Made by a program: the position numbers and the translations under genes. A DNA stretch of 35,163 bases from Puniceibacterium sediminis (GTDB lineage: Bacteria; Pseudomonadota; Alphaproteobacteria; Rhodobacterales; Rhodobacteraceae): NCBI RefSeq assembly GCF_900188035.1, contig NZ_FZNN01000028.1:1-35163 (forward strand), given 5' to 3'. Positions 13,495 through 27,217 of the stretch are shown piece after piece. The notes under the pieces are model-generated. The model had not been told where the DNA came from, ran no database searches, and worked only from the letters and a program-made list of their open reading frames with translations. The number at the start of each line of letters is the position of its first letter. The first letter of the stretch is position 1.

Positions 13495-13650
13495 CGCCCC
13501 CTCTGTCCTGTCGCCTGAGATCATTATCCCTTCGGCGGACGCGACTGGCGCGCCTCTCTCCAGAGTCTTCGATGTCACGGCGGTCCTTGGGCCTGAGAGT
13601 TTCCGGGGCGGTTGCTCCTTCGGCACCGGCTGCTGCCGGTTCTCCCGTCG
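13495..13650 (-). ncRNA. Tandem glycine riboswitch in the gcvT leader
   Basis: Read on the minus strand, 13650-13557 gives the first aptamer (GGGAGA near the 5' end, GCCGAAGGAGCAA, ACTCTCAGGCCCAAGGAC, CTCTGGAGAG) and 13556-13495 the second (GCCGAAGGGATAATGATCTC, then AGGCGACAGGACAGAGGGG). These are the conserved cores of the gcvT RNA element, with the two-aptamer layout joined by a very short linker. The leader then runs about 85 bases to the gcvT start. A small stem (CGGGG at 13470-13474 with CCCCG at 13480-13484, plus strand) lies between aptamer and start and may belong to the expression platform. Glycine binding is expected to switch on gcvTHP. Confidence 0.93.
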
Positions 13651-13661
13651 TGACGAGGGTC

Positions 13662-23633: not shown

Positions 23634-23790
23634 ACCGTGTCGCCTTTCGCTTCAATTCCGCGTGTCCACATAGCAGAACGCCGCCCGAGGGGAAGCACCT
23701 GCGGCCAAAAGAGATTGTATCGCGCGGCGGCGTCCCCTAGATTTTGGGCAGTTTCAGACAATGAGACACAGGCAAGGGCGGACGGGTGAC

Positions 23791-25203
23791 ATGACCATGA
23801 CATCGCGACACAACATAAAGCTCGCGGCAGCCTTGGCGCTGACAGCCGTTCTGGGCAGCGCGGCGCTGGCACAGCAGAGCGACGATGTGCTGACCAAACA
23901 GTACGACGATGGCGGCGTCTACGAGGGCACGTTCCGCAATGGCCTGCAGGACGGCACTGGCACCTACAGGCTGCCCAACGGCTATGAATATACCGGCGAC
24001 TGGAGCGATGGTGAAATTCGCGGCAAGGGCGTCGCACGCTTTCCCAACGGTTCGGTTTACGAAGGCCAGTTCGCCAAAGGAAAGCCCGAGGGGACGGGCA
24101 AGATCGTCTTTGCCGATGGCGGCACCTATGAGGGCACCTGGCTGGACGGCAAGATCACCGGTCAGGGCGTGGCGAATTACGCCAACGGCGTGCGCTACGA
24201 AGGTTCGTTCCGCGAGGCGCTGCATCATGGCCGCGGCACCATGACCTCGCCCGGCGGGTACAAATACGACGGCGACTGGGTCAACGGCGTGAAAGAAGGC
24301 AACGGCACCATCACCTATCCGGATGGCTCGGTCTATGCAGGGCGTGTCGCCGACGGGACTCGTGCCGGCGAAGGCAAGCTGACCATGCCCGACGGGCTGA
24401 TCTACGAAGGCATGTGGCAGGGTGGCCAGATCGACGGTAAAGGCAAGCTGACCCAGCCCAATGGCGACATCTACGAAGGCGATCTGGTCGCCGGTCGGCG
24501 TGAAGGCCACGGCAAGGTGACCTACGCCAATGGCGACATCTACGAAGGCACCTTCGTCGCCGACCAGCGGCAAGGTCAGGGCAACTTTGTCGGTTCGGAT
24601 GGCTATCTCTATTCCGGCAACTGGGTTGCGGGGCAGATCGAGGGCCAGGGCCAAGTCACCTATCCGGACGGATCGGTCTACGTCGGCCTATTTCGTGGCG
24701 ACCTTGCCAATGGTAAGGGAAAGATCACCTATCCCGATGGATCAACCTACGAGGGCGACTGGGTCGATGGGGTGATCGAGGGCAAAGGCAAGGCCGTATA
24801 CGCCAACGGGCTGATCTACGAAGGTGCCTTCGTAAATGCCCGCAACAACGGCTTTGGCGTGATGACCTATGCAGACGGCTACCGTTACGAAGGCGAATGG
24901 AAAGACGGCCAGCGTCATGGACAGGGCACCGCAAGCTATCCGGACGGCACTGTCTATACCGGAGCCTTCAGCAACGGCCAGCGCCATGGCAAGGGCGACA
25001 TCACAATGGGCGACGGCTTCAAATACTCGGGTAATTGGGCCGATGGCGAAATCGAGGGAACCGGCACGGCAACCTATTCCAATGGCGATGTCTATGAGGG
25101 GACCTTCAAGGACGGCAAGCGTCAGGGCAAAGGTACCATGCGCTACGCCACCGGAGAAGAGGCGACCGGCGAGTGGGTCAACGGCGCGCTGAGCGACGGA
25201 TGA
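23791..25203 (+). CDS. Exported MORN-repeat protein with 18 consecutive repeats
   Basis: About 470 residues. A signal peptide (MTMTSRHNIKLAAALALTAV, then LGSAALAQ, cleavage about residue 28) is followed by a short linker and 18 uninterrupted MORN repeats, each exactly 23 residues, from 23920 to 25161, with a 13-residue partial repeat closing the protein. The consensus is Y-E-G-x-(W/F)-x-x-G-x-x-x-G-x-G-x-x-x-Y-x-(D/N)-G-x-x. MORN repeats form an extended beta-hairpin sheet and in several proteins bind membranes or scaffold partners; no enzymatic domain is attached here. The ATGs at 23791 and 23797 give good signal peptides; one at 23761 would add a hydrophilic N-terminus and is less likely. 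It is divergent from nadE (157 bases apart) and stands alone before the leu leader. Confidence 0.9.
   Translation: MTMTSRHNIKLAAALALTAVLGSAALAQQSDDVLTKQYDDGGVYEGTFRNGLQDGTGTYRLPNGYEYTGDWSDGEIRGKGVARFPNGSVYEGQFAKGKPEGTGKIVFADGGTYEGTWLDGKITGQGVANYANGVRYEGSFREALHHGRGTMTSPGGYKYDGDWVNGVKEGNGTITYPDGSVYAGRVADGTRAGEGKLTMPDGLIYEGMWQGGQIDGKGKLTQPNGDIYEGDLVAGRREGHGKVTYANGDIYEGTFVADQRQGQGNFVGSDGYLYSGNWVAGQIEGQGQVTYPDGSVYVGLFRGDLANGKGKITYPDGSTYEGDWVDGVIEGKGKAVYANGLIYEGAFVNARNNGFGVMTYADGYRYEGEWKDGQRHGQGTASYPDGTVYTGAFSNGQRHGKGDITMGDGFKYSGNWADGEIEGTGTATYSNGDVYEGTFKDGKRQGKGTMRYATGEEATGEWVNGALSDG
23920..25161 (+). repeat. 18 tandem 69-bp units encoding MORN repeats
   Basis: The array is exactly 18 x 69 bp with no insertion or deletion. 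At DNA level units are diverged, sharing mainly the segments coding for TACGAAGGC/TAYGARGG-type Tyr-Glu-Gly starts and GGCAAGGGC-type Gly-rich turns, so it is an old, protein-level repeat rather than a recent expansion. Confidence 0.9.
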
Positions 25204-25401
25204 TCGGCGCGCCCACCAATGCGATTTACTGAGCGGGGTCTGCCGCCTGTTGATACCCGCCCGACTCGCCTGTGATGGAATAGCCATCGTTGCGGAAAAC
25301 CGATGCGCGATCTAAAAGCACGGCGCGGACGCGCCAATGGAATTCTCGACGATACAGCGCCCGCCCCCGATTTTCCGGGTTCCCATTTCAAAAACCGCAC
25401 C

Positions 25402-25407
25402 TATACT
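25402..25407 (+). promoter_or_regulatory. Candidate -10 element of the leu leader transcript
   Basis: TATACT at 25402-25407 resembles a sigma-70 -10 box; a weak TTCCCA at 25380-25385 is at 16 bases spacing. Transcription would begin near 25414, at or one base before the leader ATG (25415), so the leader peptide would be translated from a leaderless mRNA. The rest of 25204-25400 shows no gene. Confidence 0.5.
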
Positions 25408-25414
25408 GCGCGAT

Positions 25415-25531
25415 ATGACAACCACGCGCCATATCCCGACCCATAACCGCACTTTTCGTGCGGCTGTCGGTGTTGGTGGGCGCCCCTGTGGCGCGACTCC
25501 GCTTGGCCTACTTCTCCTAATTCGCCTCTGA
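25415..25531 (+). CDS. leuL: Leucine leader peptide (leuA attenuation)
   Basis: This 38-codon open frame ends in the codons for T-P-L-G-L-L-L-L-I-R-L followed by TGA, i.e. six Leu and one Ile in the last nine codons (25502-25528). It sits in the leader of leuA, 81 bases before its start. A Leu-rich peptide upstream of a leucine biosynthesis gene is the standard sign of ribosome-mediated attenuation; attenuation of leuA is described for several proteobacteria. There is no ribosome binding site before the ATG, which fits leaderless translation from the -10 box just upstream; the S. meliloti trpL leader is known to be leaderless. The name is by function only. Confidence 0.82.
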   Translation: MTTTRHIPTHNRTFRAAVGVGGRPCGATPLGLLLLIRL

Positions 25532-25594
25532 GCGTGCCGTCACGGCGCGAACGCTCAGAGGAGGCTGTTCCGCGCCGCACGAACTCAGGAGAAG
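25511..25594 (+). promoter_or_regulatory. leuA attenuator-like RNA structure
   Basis: CCTCTGAGCG (25525-25534) and CGCTCAGAGG (25552-25561) form a perfect 10-pair stem around an inner GCCG-TCA-CGGC hairpin (25536-25546). The upstream arm covers the leader peptide's last codons and stop. In addition, the leucine-codon run CTTCTCCT (25511-25518) is exactly complementary to AGGAGAAG (25587-25594), and TTCG (25521-25524) to CGAA (25580-25583), so an outer stem can enclose the inner one. A ribosome stalled at the Leu codons would break both. No T-run follows, so a classical intrinsic terminator is not evident. Confidence 0.7.
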
Positions 25595-25612
25595 AATAGA
25601 AAGAAATCCGAC

Positions 25613-27217
25613 ATGACCGATACGACCAATACCCCCGCCAATGACCGGGTGTCGCCAGTGACGGCGAAAGAACGTGTGGTGATTTTCGACACGACATTGC
25701 GCGATGGCGAACAATCCCCCGGCGCCACCATGACCCATGACGAAAAGCTCGAAATCGCCGAACTGCTCGACGACATGGGCGTCGATATCATCGAGGCCGG
25801 CTTTCCTATCGCCTCAGAAGGCGACTTTCGTGCTGTATCCGAAATCGCCAAGCGGTCAAAGCAGTCGGTGATCTGCGGCCTTGCACGCGCGCAGTATGGC
25901 GATATCGATCGCTGCTGGGAGGCGGTCAAGCACGCGGCCCAGCCGCGCATTCATACCTTCATCGGCACCTCGCCGCTGCACCGCGCCATCCCCAACCTGA
26001 CCATGGACGAGATGGCCGAACGGATCGAACAGACCGTGACGCACGCCCGCAACCTGTGCGACAACGTGCAGTGGTCGCCGATGGACGCCACCCGAACTGA
26101 ATGGGACTATCTCTGCCGCACGGTTGAGATCGCCATCAAGGCTGGAGCCACCACGATCAACATCCCCGACACCGTCGGCTACACCGCGCCCGTTGAATCC
26201 GCGGCCCTGATCCGCAATCTCATCGCCACGGTGCCAGGCGCGGATGATGTGATCTTTGCCACGCATTGCCACAACGACCTTGGCATGGCGACGGCCAACT
26301 CGCTGGCTGCGGTCGCGGGTGGTGCGCGCCAGATCGAATGCACGATCAACGGCCTTGGCGAACGCGCCGGCAATACCGCGCTCGAAGAGGTGGTCATGGC
26401 CCTGCGTGTGCGCGGCGATATCATGCCCTACGAGACGCGGATCGACACCCGCAAGCTTATGCACATCTCGCGCCGCGTCGCGACCGTGTCGGGCTTTGCC
26501 GTTCAGTTCAACAAGGCCATCGTTGGCAAGAACGCCTTTGCGCATGAAAGCGGCATCCACCAGGACGGCATGCTCAAGAACGCCGAGACCTTTGAAATCA
26601 TGCGCCCCGAGGATGTCGGCCTTTCGGCCACCAACCTCGTGATGGGCAAACATTCGGGGCGCGCCGCCTTGCGTGACAAACTGCGCCAGATGGGGGTCGA
26701 GGTCGGAGACAACCAGCTCAAGGATGTCTTTGTACGGTTCAAGGAATTGGCTGACCGCAAGAAGGAAGTCTATGACGACGACATCCTCGCTCTTGTCACG
26801 GCCAGCACCGAAGTCGATGACCGGTTGCAGATCCTGAACCTGCGGGTCGTCTGTGGCACCGGCGGCCCAGCCGAGGCGCAGCTTGAGATGGAGATCGACG
26901 GAAAGGAAGTCTCAGCCACCTGTTATGGCGACGGCCCGGTGGATGCGACCTTCAAGGCGGTGCGGGAACTGCATCCCAACACTGCCAAGCTGCAACTCTA
27001 TCAAGTGAATGCGGTGACCGAGGGAACCGATGCTCAGGCCACGGTCTCTGTGCGGTTGGAAGAGGACGGCATGATCGCAACCGGTCAATCTGCAGATACC
27101 GATACGGTGGTCGCCTCGGCCAGGGCCTATGTGAATGCTCTCAATCGTCTGCTCGTTCGGCGCGAAAAGATTCAGGGCAAGGACACCAAGGAAATCAGCT
27201 ACAAGGACGTGAGCTGA
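25613..27217 (+). CDS. leuA: 2-isopropylmalate synthase
   Basis: This 534-residue enzyme condenses acetyl-CoA and 2-oxoisovalerate, the first committed step of leucine synthesis. The N-terminal TIM barrel begins with [19 protein letters not shown] (metal- and substrate-binding DTTLRDGEQ, about residues 26-34). It continues with [16 protein letters not shown] (metal His residues, about 219-221) and the NGLGERAGN signature (about 247). The C-terminal regulatory domain (about 400-515) is the leucine-binding feedback domain. Full length for the LeuA type. GAAAG lies about 10 bases before the ATG. Expression is very probably controlled by the leader peptide and RNA structure directly upstream. The other leu genes are not in the window. 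Confidence 0.96.

Follow-up and report, generated by a model that had tools for sequence, protein, structure and literature searches.

The window analysed here is a stretch of 35,163 nucleotides from Puniceibacterium sediminis, an alphaproteobacterium of the family Rhodobacteraceae. It carries a gene for 2-isopropylmalate synthase, leuA, at 25613-27217 on the + strand (NF002087, 838.1 bits against a cut-off of 729), which we presume to be the regulated gene. In front of leuA lies a leader open reading frame (ORF) of 38 codons (25415-25531, + strand), with Leu at codons 30, 32, 33, 34, 35 and 38 and Ile at codon 36. The ORF encodes the peptide MTTTRHIPTHNRTFRAAVGVGGRPCGATPLGLLLLIRL, is probably leaderless, and has counterparts with a Leu run at the same place in relatives. 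A -10-like box, TATACT (25402-25407, + strand), lies 7 nt before the leader ATG, together with a -35-like TTCCCA at 25380-25385. The gene directly upstream of the leader (23761-25203, + strand) encodes a 480-aa protein with 12 MORN repeat matches, and a glycine riboswitch aptamer (RF00504, 58.9 bits) is found at 13571-13657 on the - strand.

The features discussed below are all on the + strand. Arm A consists of the Leu codons CTA CTT CTC CTA (25508-25519), the presumed sensor run. Its pairing core, CTTCTCCT at 25511-25518, is the exact complement of arm A', AGGAGAAG at 25587-25594, from which it is separated by 68 nt; the duplex is extended by TTCG (25521-25524) with CGAA (25580-25583). Arm A' resembles a Shine-Dalgarno (SD) sequence and ends 18 nt before the leuA ATG. 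Enclosed by A:A' is a perfect 10-bp stem, B:B', formed by CCTCTGAGCG (25525-25534) and CGCTCAGAGG (25552-25561), with the leader stop codon (25529-25531) inside arm B. Three further arms are C (TGCC, 25535-25538), C' (CGGCGCG, 25543-25549) and C'' (CGCGCCG, 25571-25577). A preliminary description of this DNA had reported the 38-codon peptide with its terminal run of six Leu codons and one Ile codon, the eight-base complement of the Leu codons with its TTCG/CGAA extension, and the ten-pair stem over the stop codon. All of these are present as reported, and the folding that it proposed for 25405-25640 returned both stems.

Distribution of the leader

In the window's genome the exact pattern and the two models R1 and R2 each match this single place. 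LeuA relatives at E <= 1e-100 occur in 43 of 60 related genomes, and a search by a simple rule picked out an upstream leader with a Leu run at 36 of 42 loci, a few of these being wrong places. Two of the six loci missed by the rule (L003 and L008) carry the leader before a cupin gene. Model R1 was made from alignment A1, which holds 28 of the 36 family loci; five loci without the strict core (L014, L019, L021, L023 and L026) and three taken for other families (L031-L033) were left out. R1 matches 239 of 246 family genomes, once in each except for one genome with two matches. For L026 there is no model match in the collection of family copies.

Most of our comparisons use 149 copies from two collections (64 and 85, after five short antisense hits had been dropped). 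The gene that follows is leuA in 137 of the 149 and a small cupin gene in the other 12. Behind the cupin gene leuA is seen in eight of the 12, and in the remaining four the sequence ends before it could appear. The cupin-type copies are L003, L008, L049, L053, L081, L089, L091, L193, L211, L216, L229 and L233; the gene was identified as Cupin_2 by Pfam, run on L008 only. The Leu codons in these copies mostly pair with the SD sequence of the cupin gene. At another locus, L012, a short ORF whose start lies about 8 nt downstream of the A' purine run seems to overlap the start of leuA as ATGA, an arrangement that suggests translational coupling.

Across the class, R1 matches 25 of 386 genomes, six of the family and 19 outside it, with leuA downstream in 18 of the 19. 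One R1 match (L070, E 0.0084) was discarded as a false positive, no leuA being seen beside it. The class-wide model R2 was made from alignment A4, with 25 sequences (eight from the family, 17 from other families), and matches 115 of the 386 genomes; a LeuA of the window's type was found in 194 of these genomes (E <= 1e-120). Among 150 listed genomes with leuA, 102 have an R2 match and 48 have none. There are 116 R2 matches. For 102 of them leuA follows on the same strand at a distance of under 600 nt (median about 54 nt), and one lies elsewhere. The other 13 are in genomes without a leuA among those listed; we read eight of them, and all eight precede leuA. In the phylum R2 matches 86 of 397 genomes, a total not split by class, and 85 of the 86 belong to the same class. 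The sole match outside the class (L320) is followed by an HU-like frame and no leuA, and the second R2 match in genome G091 is partial; both were rejected as false positives.

In five of the eight loci that we read (L300, L301, L302, L305 and L306) the leader precedes the other, actinobacterial-like type of LeuA. This type was recognised by the motif STDLRDGNQ or SVDLRDGNQ and, in L300, also by IPMS_D2 replacing HCS_D2. Going by these motifs, the enzyme at the five loci has apparently been replaced and the switch kept.

The Leu codons and their partner

The last 11 codons of the 149 leaders contain 842 Leu codons, with a mean of 5.65 and a range of 3 to 7 per leader (the leader frame was taken as the frame with most Leu and Ile). 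Codon choice in these leaders (CTT 0.342, CTC 0.316, CTG 0.203, CTA 0.119) differs from that in 18 long ORFs of the window, where CTG makes up 0.573 and CTA 0.020 of 855 Leu codons. The low share of CTG may mean that C-T-rich codons are needed for pairing, or that a sensor favours less used codons; the two causes are inseparable.

Arm A pairs better with the A' of its own genome than with that of other genomes. For the 149 family copies the own-genome duplex has a mean of -14.16 kcal/mol against -11.77 kcal/mol (sd 0.20) with permuted partners. The lowest of 5000 permutations is -12.51 kcal/mol and none reaches the own mean, in a test that ignores relatedness and takes the first ATG after the element as the gene start, which is possibly wrong in some rows. 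In 36 copies from other alphaproteobacterial families the values are -16.75 and -13.44 kcal/mol (sd 0.50), and again none of 5000 permutations reaches the own mean, relatedness being ignored here as well. The family member L033, which had sat among the "class" rows of two earlier tests (one using 37 of 38 rows, the other all 35 class rows given), is excluded from these 36.

One could argue that the pairing of A with A' is a by-product of pyrimidine-rich Leu codons lying opposite a purine-rich SD sequence. Permuted partners (-11.8 kcal/mol) and, in the family, shuffled partners (-10.3 kcal/mol) do pair fairly well too. However, own partners beat permuted ones in the family and in the other-family set, and changes outside the Leu codons are matched as well, for example TTAGC with GCTAA and TAACC with GGTTA. 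We find this explanation scarcely credible. The Leu run and the pairing are both conserved, and it is likely, as the preliminary description had supposed, that the same bases are sensor and pairing arm at once.

The partner of the Leu codons often falls on the ribosome-binding region of the next gene. A' and positions -18 to -5 of that gene share at least 5 nt in 10 of the 11 cupin-type rows and 95 of the 134 leuA-type rows, four rows of more than 130 nt having been set aside (among them L081, which proved to be cupin-type). In 18 of the 36 copies from other families an AGGA located 7-16 nt before the ATG lies wholly within the A:A' duplex. For the window, the overlap of A:A' with -18 to -5 of leuA is 6 nt.

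The inner core

In stem B:B' all 10 pairs can form in 139 of the 149 relatives, and 7-9 pairs in the other 10. Pairs with changes on both sides number two in alignment A1, four in A2, seven in A3 (90 rows, five of them short antisense partials) and five in the class-wide A4. In A4 the leader stop may be UGA, UAA or UAG, and the three are mostly matched on the opposite strand of the stem. The preliminary description had asked for covariation in relatives and was prepared to give up its reading if neither the Leu run nor the pairing turned out to be conserved. The family-wide comparison excludes this: the Leu run is conserved, B:B' covaries and A:A' pairs better within than between genomes.

A further helix, absent from that description, is formed by C' and C''. 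It crosses B:B', making a pseudoknot, and it also covaries. The A2 column pair 43-89, for example, is CG in 32 cells, GC in seven and UA in six, with 17 of 62 cells unpaired; at the outer pair 57-83, 30 of 64 cells do not pair. Over 146 of the 149 copies the own-genome mean for C':C'' is -16.44 kcal/mol against -14.86 kcal/mol for permuted partners, a value reached in none of 5000 permutations (relatedness ignored). Locally, C' can instead pair with C. C:C' is paired in 99% of cells, with little covariation, and own partners again do better than permuted ones (-6.56 against -6.16 kcal/mol, 0 of 5000, relatedness ignored). Sliding the arms by 3 columns gives equally good pairing, on few cells, and hence the slide control does not discriminate. 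The C:C' hairpin is present in the predicted fold of 25500-25625. Because C' can pair with C or with C'', two forms of the core are possible, a hairpin and a pseudoknot.

Stems A:A' and B:B' are contained in the predicted folds of both 25405-25640 and 25500-25625. The stability of the first fold corresponds to a z of -2.61, with 3 of 200 shuffles as stable; for the second fold the values are -1.94 and 5 of 200.

This topology has a precedent. The actinobacterial LEU element is described as lying before leuA. It has a leader peptide with a Leu run and a base stem in which the Leu codons pair with the leuA SD sequence, and carries a pseudoknot or alternative hairpin within that stem (Seliverstov et al. 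2005, PMC1262725). The both-sided changes in B:B' and C':C'' mark the alphaproteobacterial core, on the evidence of the alignments, as a predicted LEU-type pseudoknot inside a base stem.

Could a protein or a small ligand bind to the pseudoknot, with the Leu codons serving mainly as base-stem sequence? Some core bases (CTCTGAGCGTGCC and GGCGC) are nearly invariant in the family, where the core CCTCTGAGCGTGCC is common to the loci, and PMC1262725 preferred a protein for the actinobacterial element. Yet most of the invariant bases lie in helices, the inner loops vary across the class, and three to seven Leu codons among the last 11 of every one of the 149 leaders would be left unexplained. We consider a binding site of this kind quite improbable.

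Mode of control and related systems

The distance from a -10-like hexamer to a possible leader start codon downstream is 6-8 nt in 105 of the 149 copies and 4, 5 or 9 nt in seven; in 37 of the 149 there is none within 4-10 nt. The distances peak at 7 nt (64 copies) and 8 nt (31 copies), and this peak is the sole internal check on the hexamer count. The position fits a leaderless or nearly leaderless leader. The preliminary description had suggested that the box at 25402 would make the peptide's mRNA leaderless. This is supported in so far as a promoter that would give a nearly leaderless leader is conserved. Alphaproteobacterial precedents exist: 375 leaderless mRNAs are reported for Caulobacter (PMC4117421), and trpL of Sinorhizobium meliloti is reported to be leaderless (PMC10117765).

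A scan of 25200-25800 found no intrinsic terminator on the + strand. Between B' and the next gene, no stretch of 8 nt holds more than four T in 136 of the 149 copies; in the other 13 the maximum is five or six. The absence of a T-run, and with it of the classical attenuator terminator, had been claimed before for the window and extends to the 136 relatives without a U-run. No family of Rfam 15, with Leu_leader, riboswitches and T-box among them, matches the leader at the gathering score. Three matches at chance level, all upstream of the leader ORF, were rejected.

With no terminator, control would take another route, and the preliminary description had named RNA processing, Rho and translation. 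Of these routes the comparison favours translation, since in many relatives A' lies across the site where ribosomes would bind for the next gene. Under Rho-dependent attenuation, an untranslated leader and leuA would allow Rho to end the transcript before leuA, the folds hiding or exposing a Rho-binding stretch. The lack of an intrinsic terminator at the leader agrees with this, and Rho was proposed for terminator-less mycobacterial cys leaders in PMC1262725. Rho, however, would account neither for the matching of A with A' nor for how often the Leu codons have their partner in the ribosome-binding region of the next gene, and we regard it as unlikely.

The reading that we prefer, and believe to be probably correct, is that the leader is a LEU-type translational attenuator that turns leuA on when leucine is short. 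The parts, their conservation and complementarity, and the absence of a terminator behind them are what the sequences show. Where transcription starts, that the ribosome stalls, in which order the steps follow and how leuA translation is affected, we infer as follows. Transcription would start at or beside the leader AUG, so that a ribosome loads at once. When leucine is plentiful, ribosomes would cross the Leu run, terminate in B and depart, leaving A to pair with A' upstream of leuA. A:A' would then close round the compact B:B' core, with the C':C'' pseudoknot as an option, and leuA initiation would be held down. When leucine is scarce, a ribosome delayed at those codons would cover A, A' would stay single-stranded and leuA would be translated.

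Folding with part of the RNA blocked gives an impression of these steps. The model assumes a ribosome footprint from 15 nt upstream to 17 nt downstream of the first P-site base, and pseudoknots are outside it. In the window A' is predicted to be unpaired with a probability of 0.01 in free RNA and 0.01 with a ribosome at the start codon, of 0.57-0.65 with a ribosome on Leu codons 32-35, and of 0.64 with one at the stop codon. In 143 of the 149 relatives, positions -20 to -5 of the next gene are unpaired at 0.518 in free RNA, 0.603 with the Leu codons covered, 0.597 with a ribosome at the stop codon and 0.518 with one upstream (p 2e-8 for Leu-covered against upstream-covered). A gain of more than 0.1 is seen in 58 of the 143 family rows and in 17 of the 35 class rows. 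Covering the Leu codons raises the mean from 0.37 to 0.55 in cupin rows (n=11) and from 0.36 to 0.47 in class rows (n=35, with L033 of the family among them). In this model the direction of the shift fits an attenuator, and its size is modest. The site opens to the same extent whether the ribosome sits at the stop codon or on the Leu codons; hence the proposed attenuator would need quick release after termination.

The last step, the release of leuA, is less certain in the window itself because A' ends 18 nt before the ATG. Positions 25595-25617 are predicted to be unpaired at 0.76-0.79 in all ribosome states tried, with or without a ribosome on the Leu codons, so simple masking of an SD sequence is unsupported here. 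The closed stem may block access of the small subunit rather than hide an SD. Alternatively, the folds might govern RNase cleavage or the stability of leuA mRNA, not initiation, and it is true that A:A' in the window sits just upstream of a core initiation region that stays open. Control by the ribosome is nevertheless what the Leu run points to, as does the overlap with the SD sequence in relatives, and we give this alternative little chance of being right.

How does a translational attenuator of this kind compare with known systems? Classical leu operon attenuators (Rfam Leu_leader) combine a leader peptide rich in Leu codons with alternative folds and a U-run terminator; the leuA leader shares the first two, whereas the U-run terminator is missing. 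In erm and cat translational attenuation, a drug-stalled ribosome on a leader ORF frees the downstream ribosome-binding site. The mechanism proposed here would be similar in that the position of a ribosome on the leader ORF frees a site downstream. It would differ in its presumed trigger, scarce charged Leu-tRNA, and in that the sensor codons themselves would be the masking strand. The trpL/rnTrpL system of S. meliloti (PMC10117765) is alike in that a leaderless ORF precedes an amino-acid gene, again in an alphaproteobacterium; it is a transcription attenuator that yields an sRNA, whereas the leuA leader has no terminator.

The closest likeness is to the LEU element: position before leuA, the Leu run, a putative base stem, the inner pseudoknot or hairpin and the lack of a terminator. 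Of the base stem, complementarity is supported and overlap with the SD sequence is seen in many relatives, with A' of the window lying 18 nt before the ATG. The differences are that the two come from different phyla, that the sequences of stem and pseudoknot are not the same, and that in most alphaproteobacterial copies the enzyme is of another LeuA type than the actinobacterial one. Alphaproteobacteria have the stop codon within stem B; in the actinobacterial copies that we inspected it comes after arm B. Parts of the earlier literature bear on the actinobacterial mechanism: mutations in a Streptomyces leader are reported not to fit classical attenuation (PMC1262725), and in Streptomyces lividans the leader is described as leaderless and without a terminator (PMC8079986).

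We also looked at 80 actinobacterial leuA loci. By the simple rule, 16 of the 79 usable loci have leaders such as VFGLLLLSCRDES. R2 gave 29 weak matches at E<=10, with a best E of 3.1e-4; 28 of the 29 precede leuA and share its strand. In 27 of these 28 leaders, C':C'' beats permuted partners (10 of 5000) and A:A' is marginal (172 of 5000). That alphaproteobacterial and actinobacterial leaders share one design is supported. Common descent with the actinobacterial LEU element is possible, convergence being the alternative. Some alphaproteobacteria with the actinobacterial-like enzyme (the five loci named above) keep the alphaproteobacterial leader. With more doubt than conviction, we extend this to the view that one LEU design serves leuA in two phyla and with two LeuA types, that the switch would thus be older than the gene or have been exchanged independently of it, and that the Leu codons act as the anti-Shine-Dalgarno strand in leaderless transcripts.

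Judged by comparative sequence evidence, then, the leader is a real and widely conserved terminator-less leuA leader with LEU-element topology. It is a candidate regulator of leucine synthesis that is nearly universal in a large bacterial family and has no Rfam match at the gathering score. If our reading is true, it would be an amino-acid switch acting on translation whose sensor codons are the masking strand. Lopatovskaya et al. 2010 may already describe leuA elements in proteobacteria; we found no paper on a leuA leader in alphaproteobacteria among the open-licence literature matches listed. With this further sequence set of like topology, the question of the actinobacterial LEU mechanism is reopened and that mechanism becomes testable.

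One conserved feature of the leader lies upstream of the pairing arms. CATATC (25430-25435, + strand), the codons His6-Ile7, is conserved in relatives at the nucleotide level, and Leu sensing leaves this conservation unexplained. A start could be assigned in 112 leaders, and H[IMV] stands at codons 6-7 in 57 of them. Within the first 12 residues it occurs in 62 of the 112, spelled CATATC in 52 of the 62, and in a control stretch, residues 13-24, it occurs in one.
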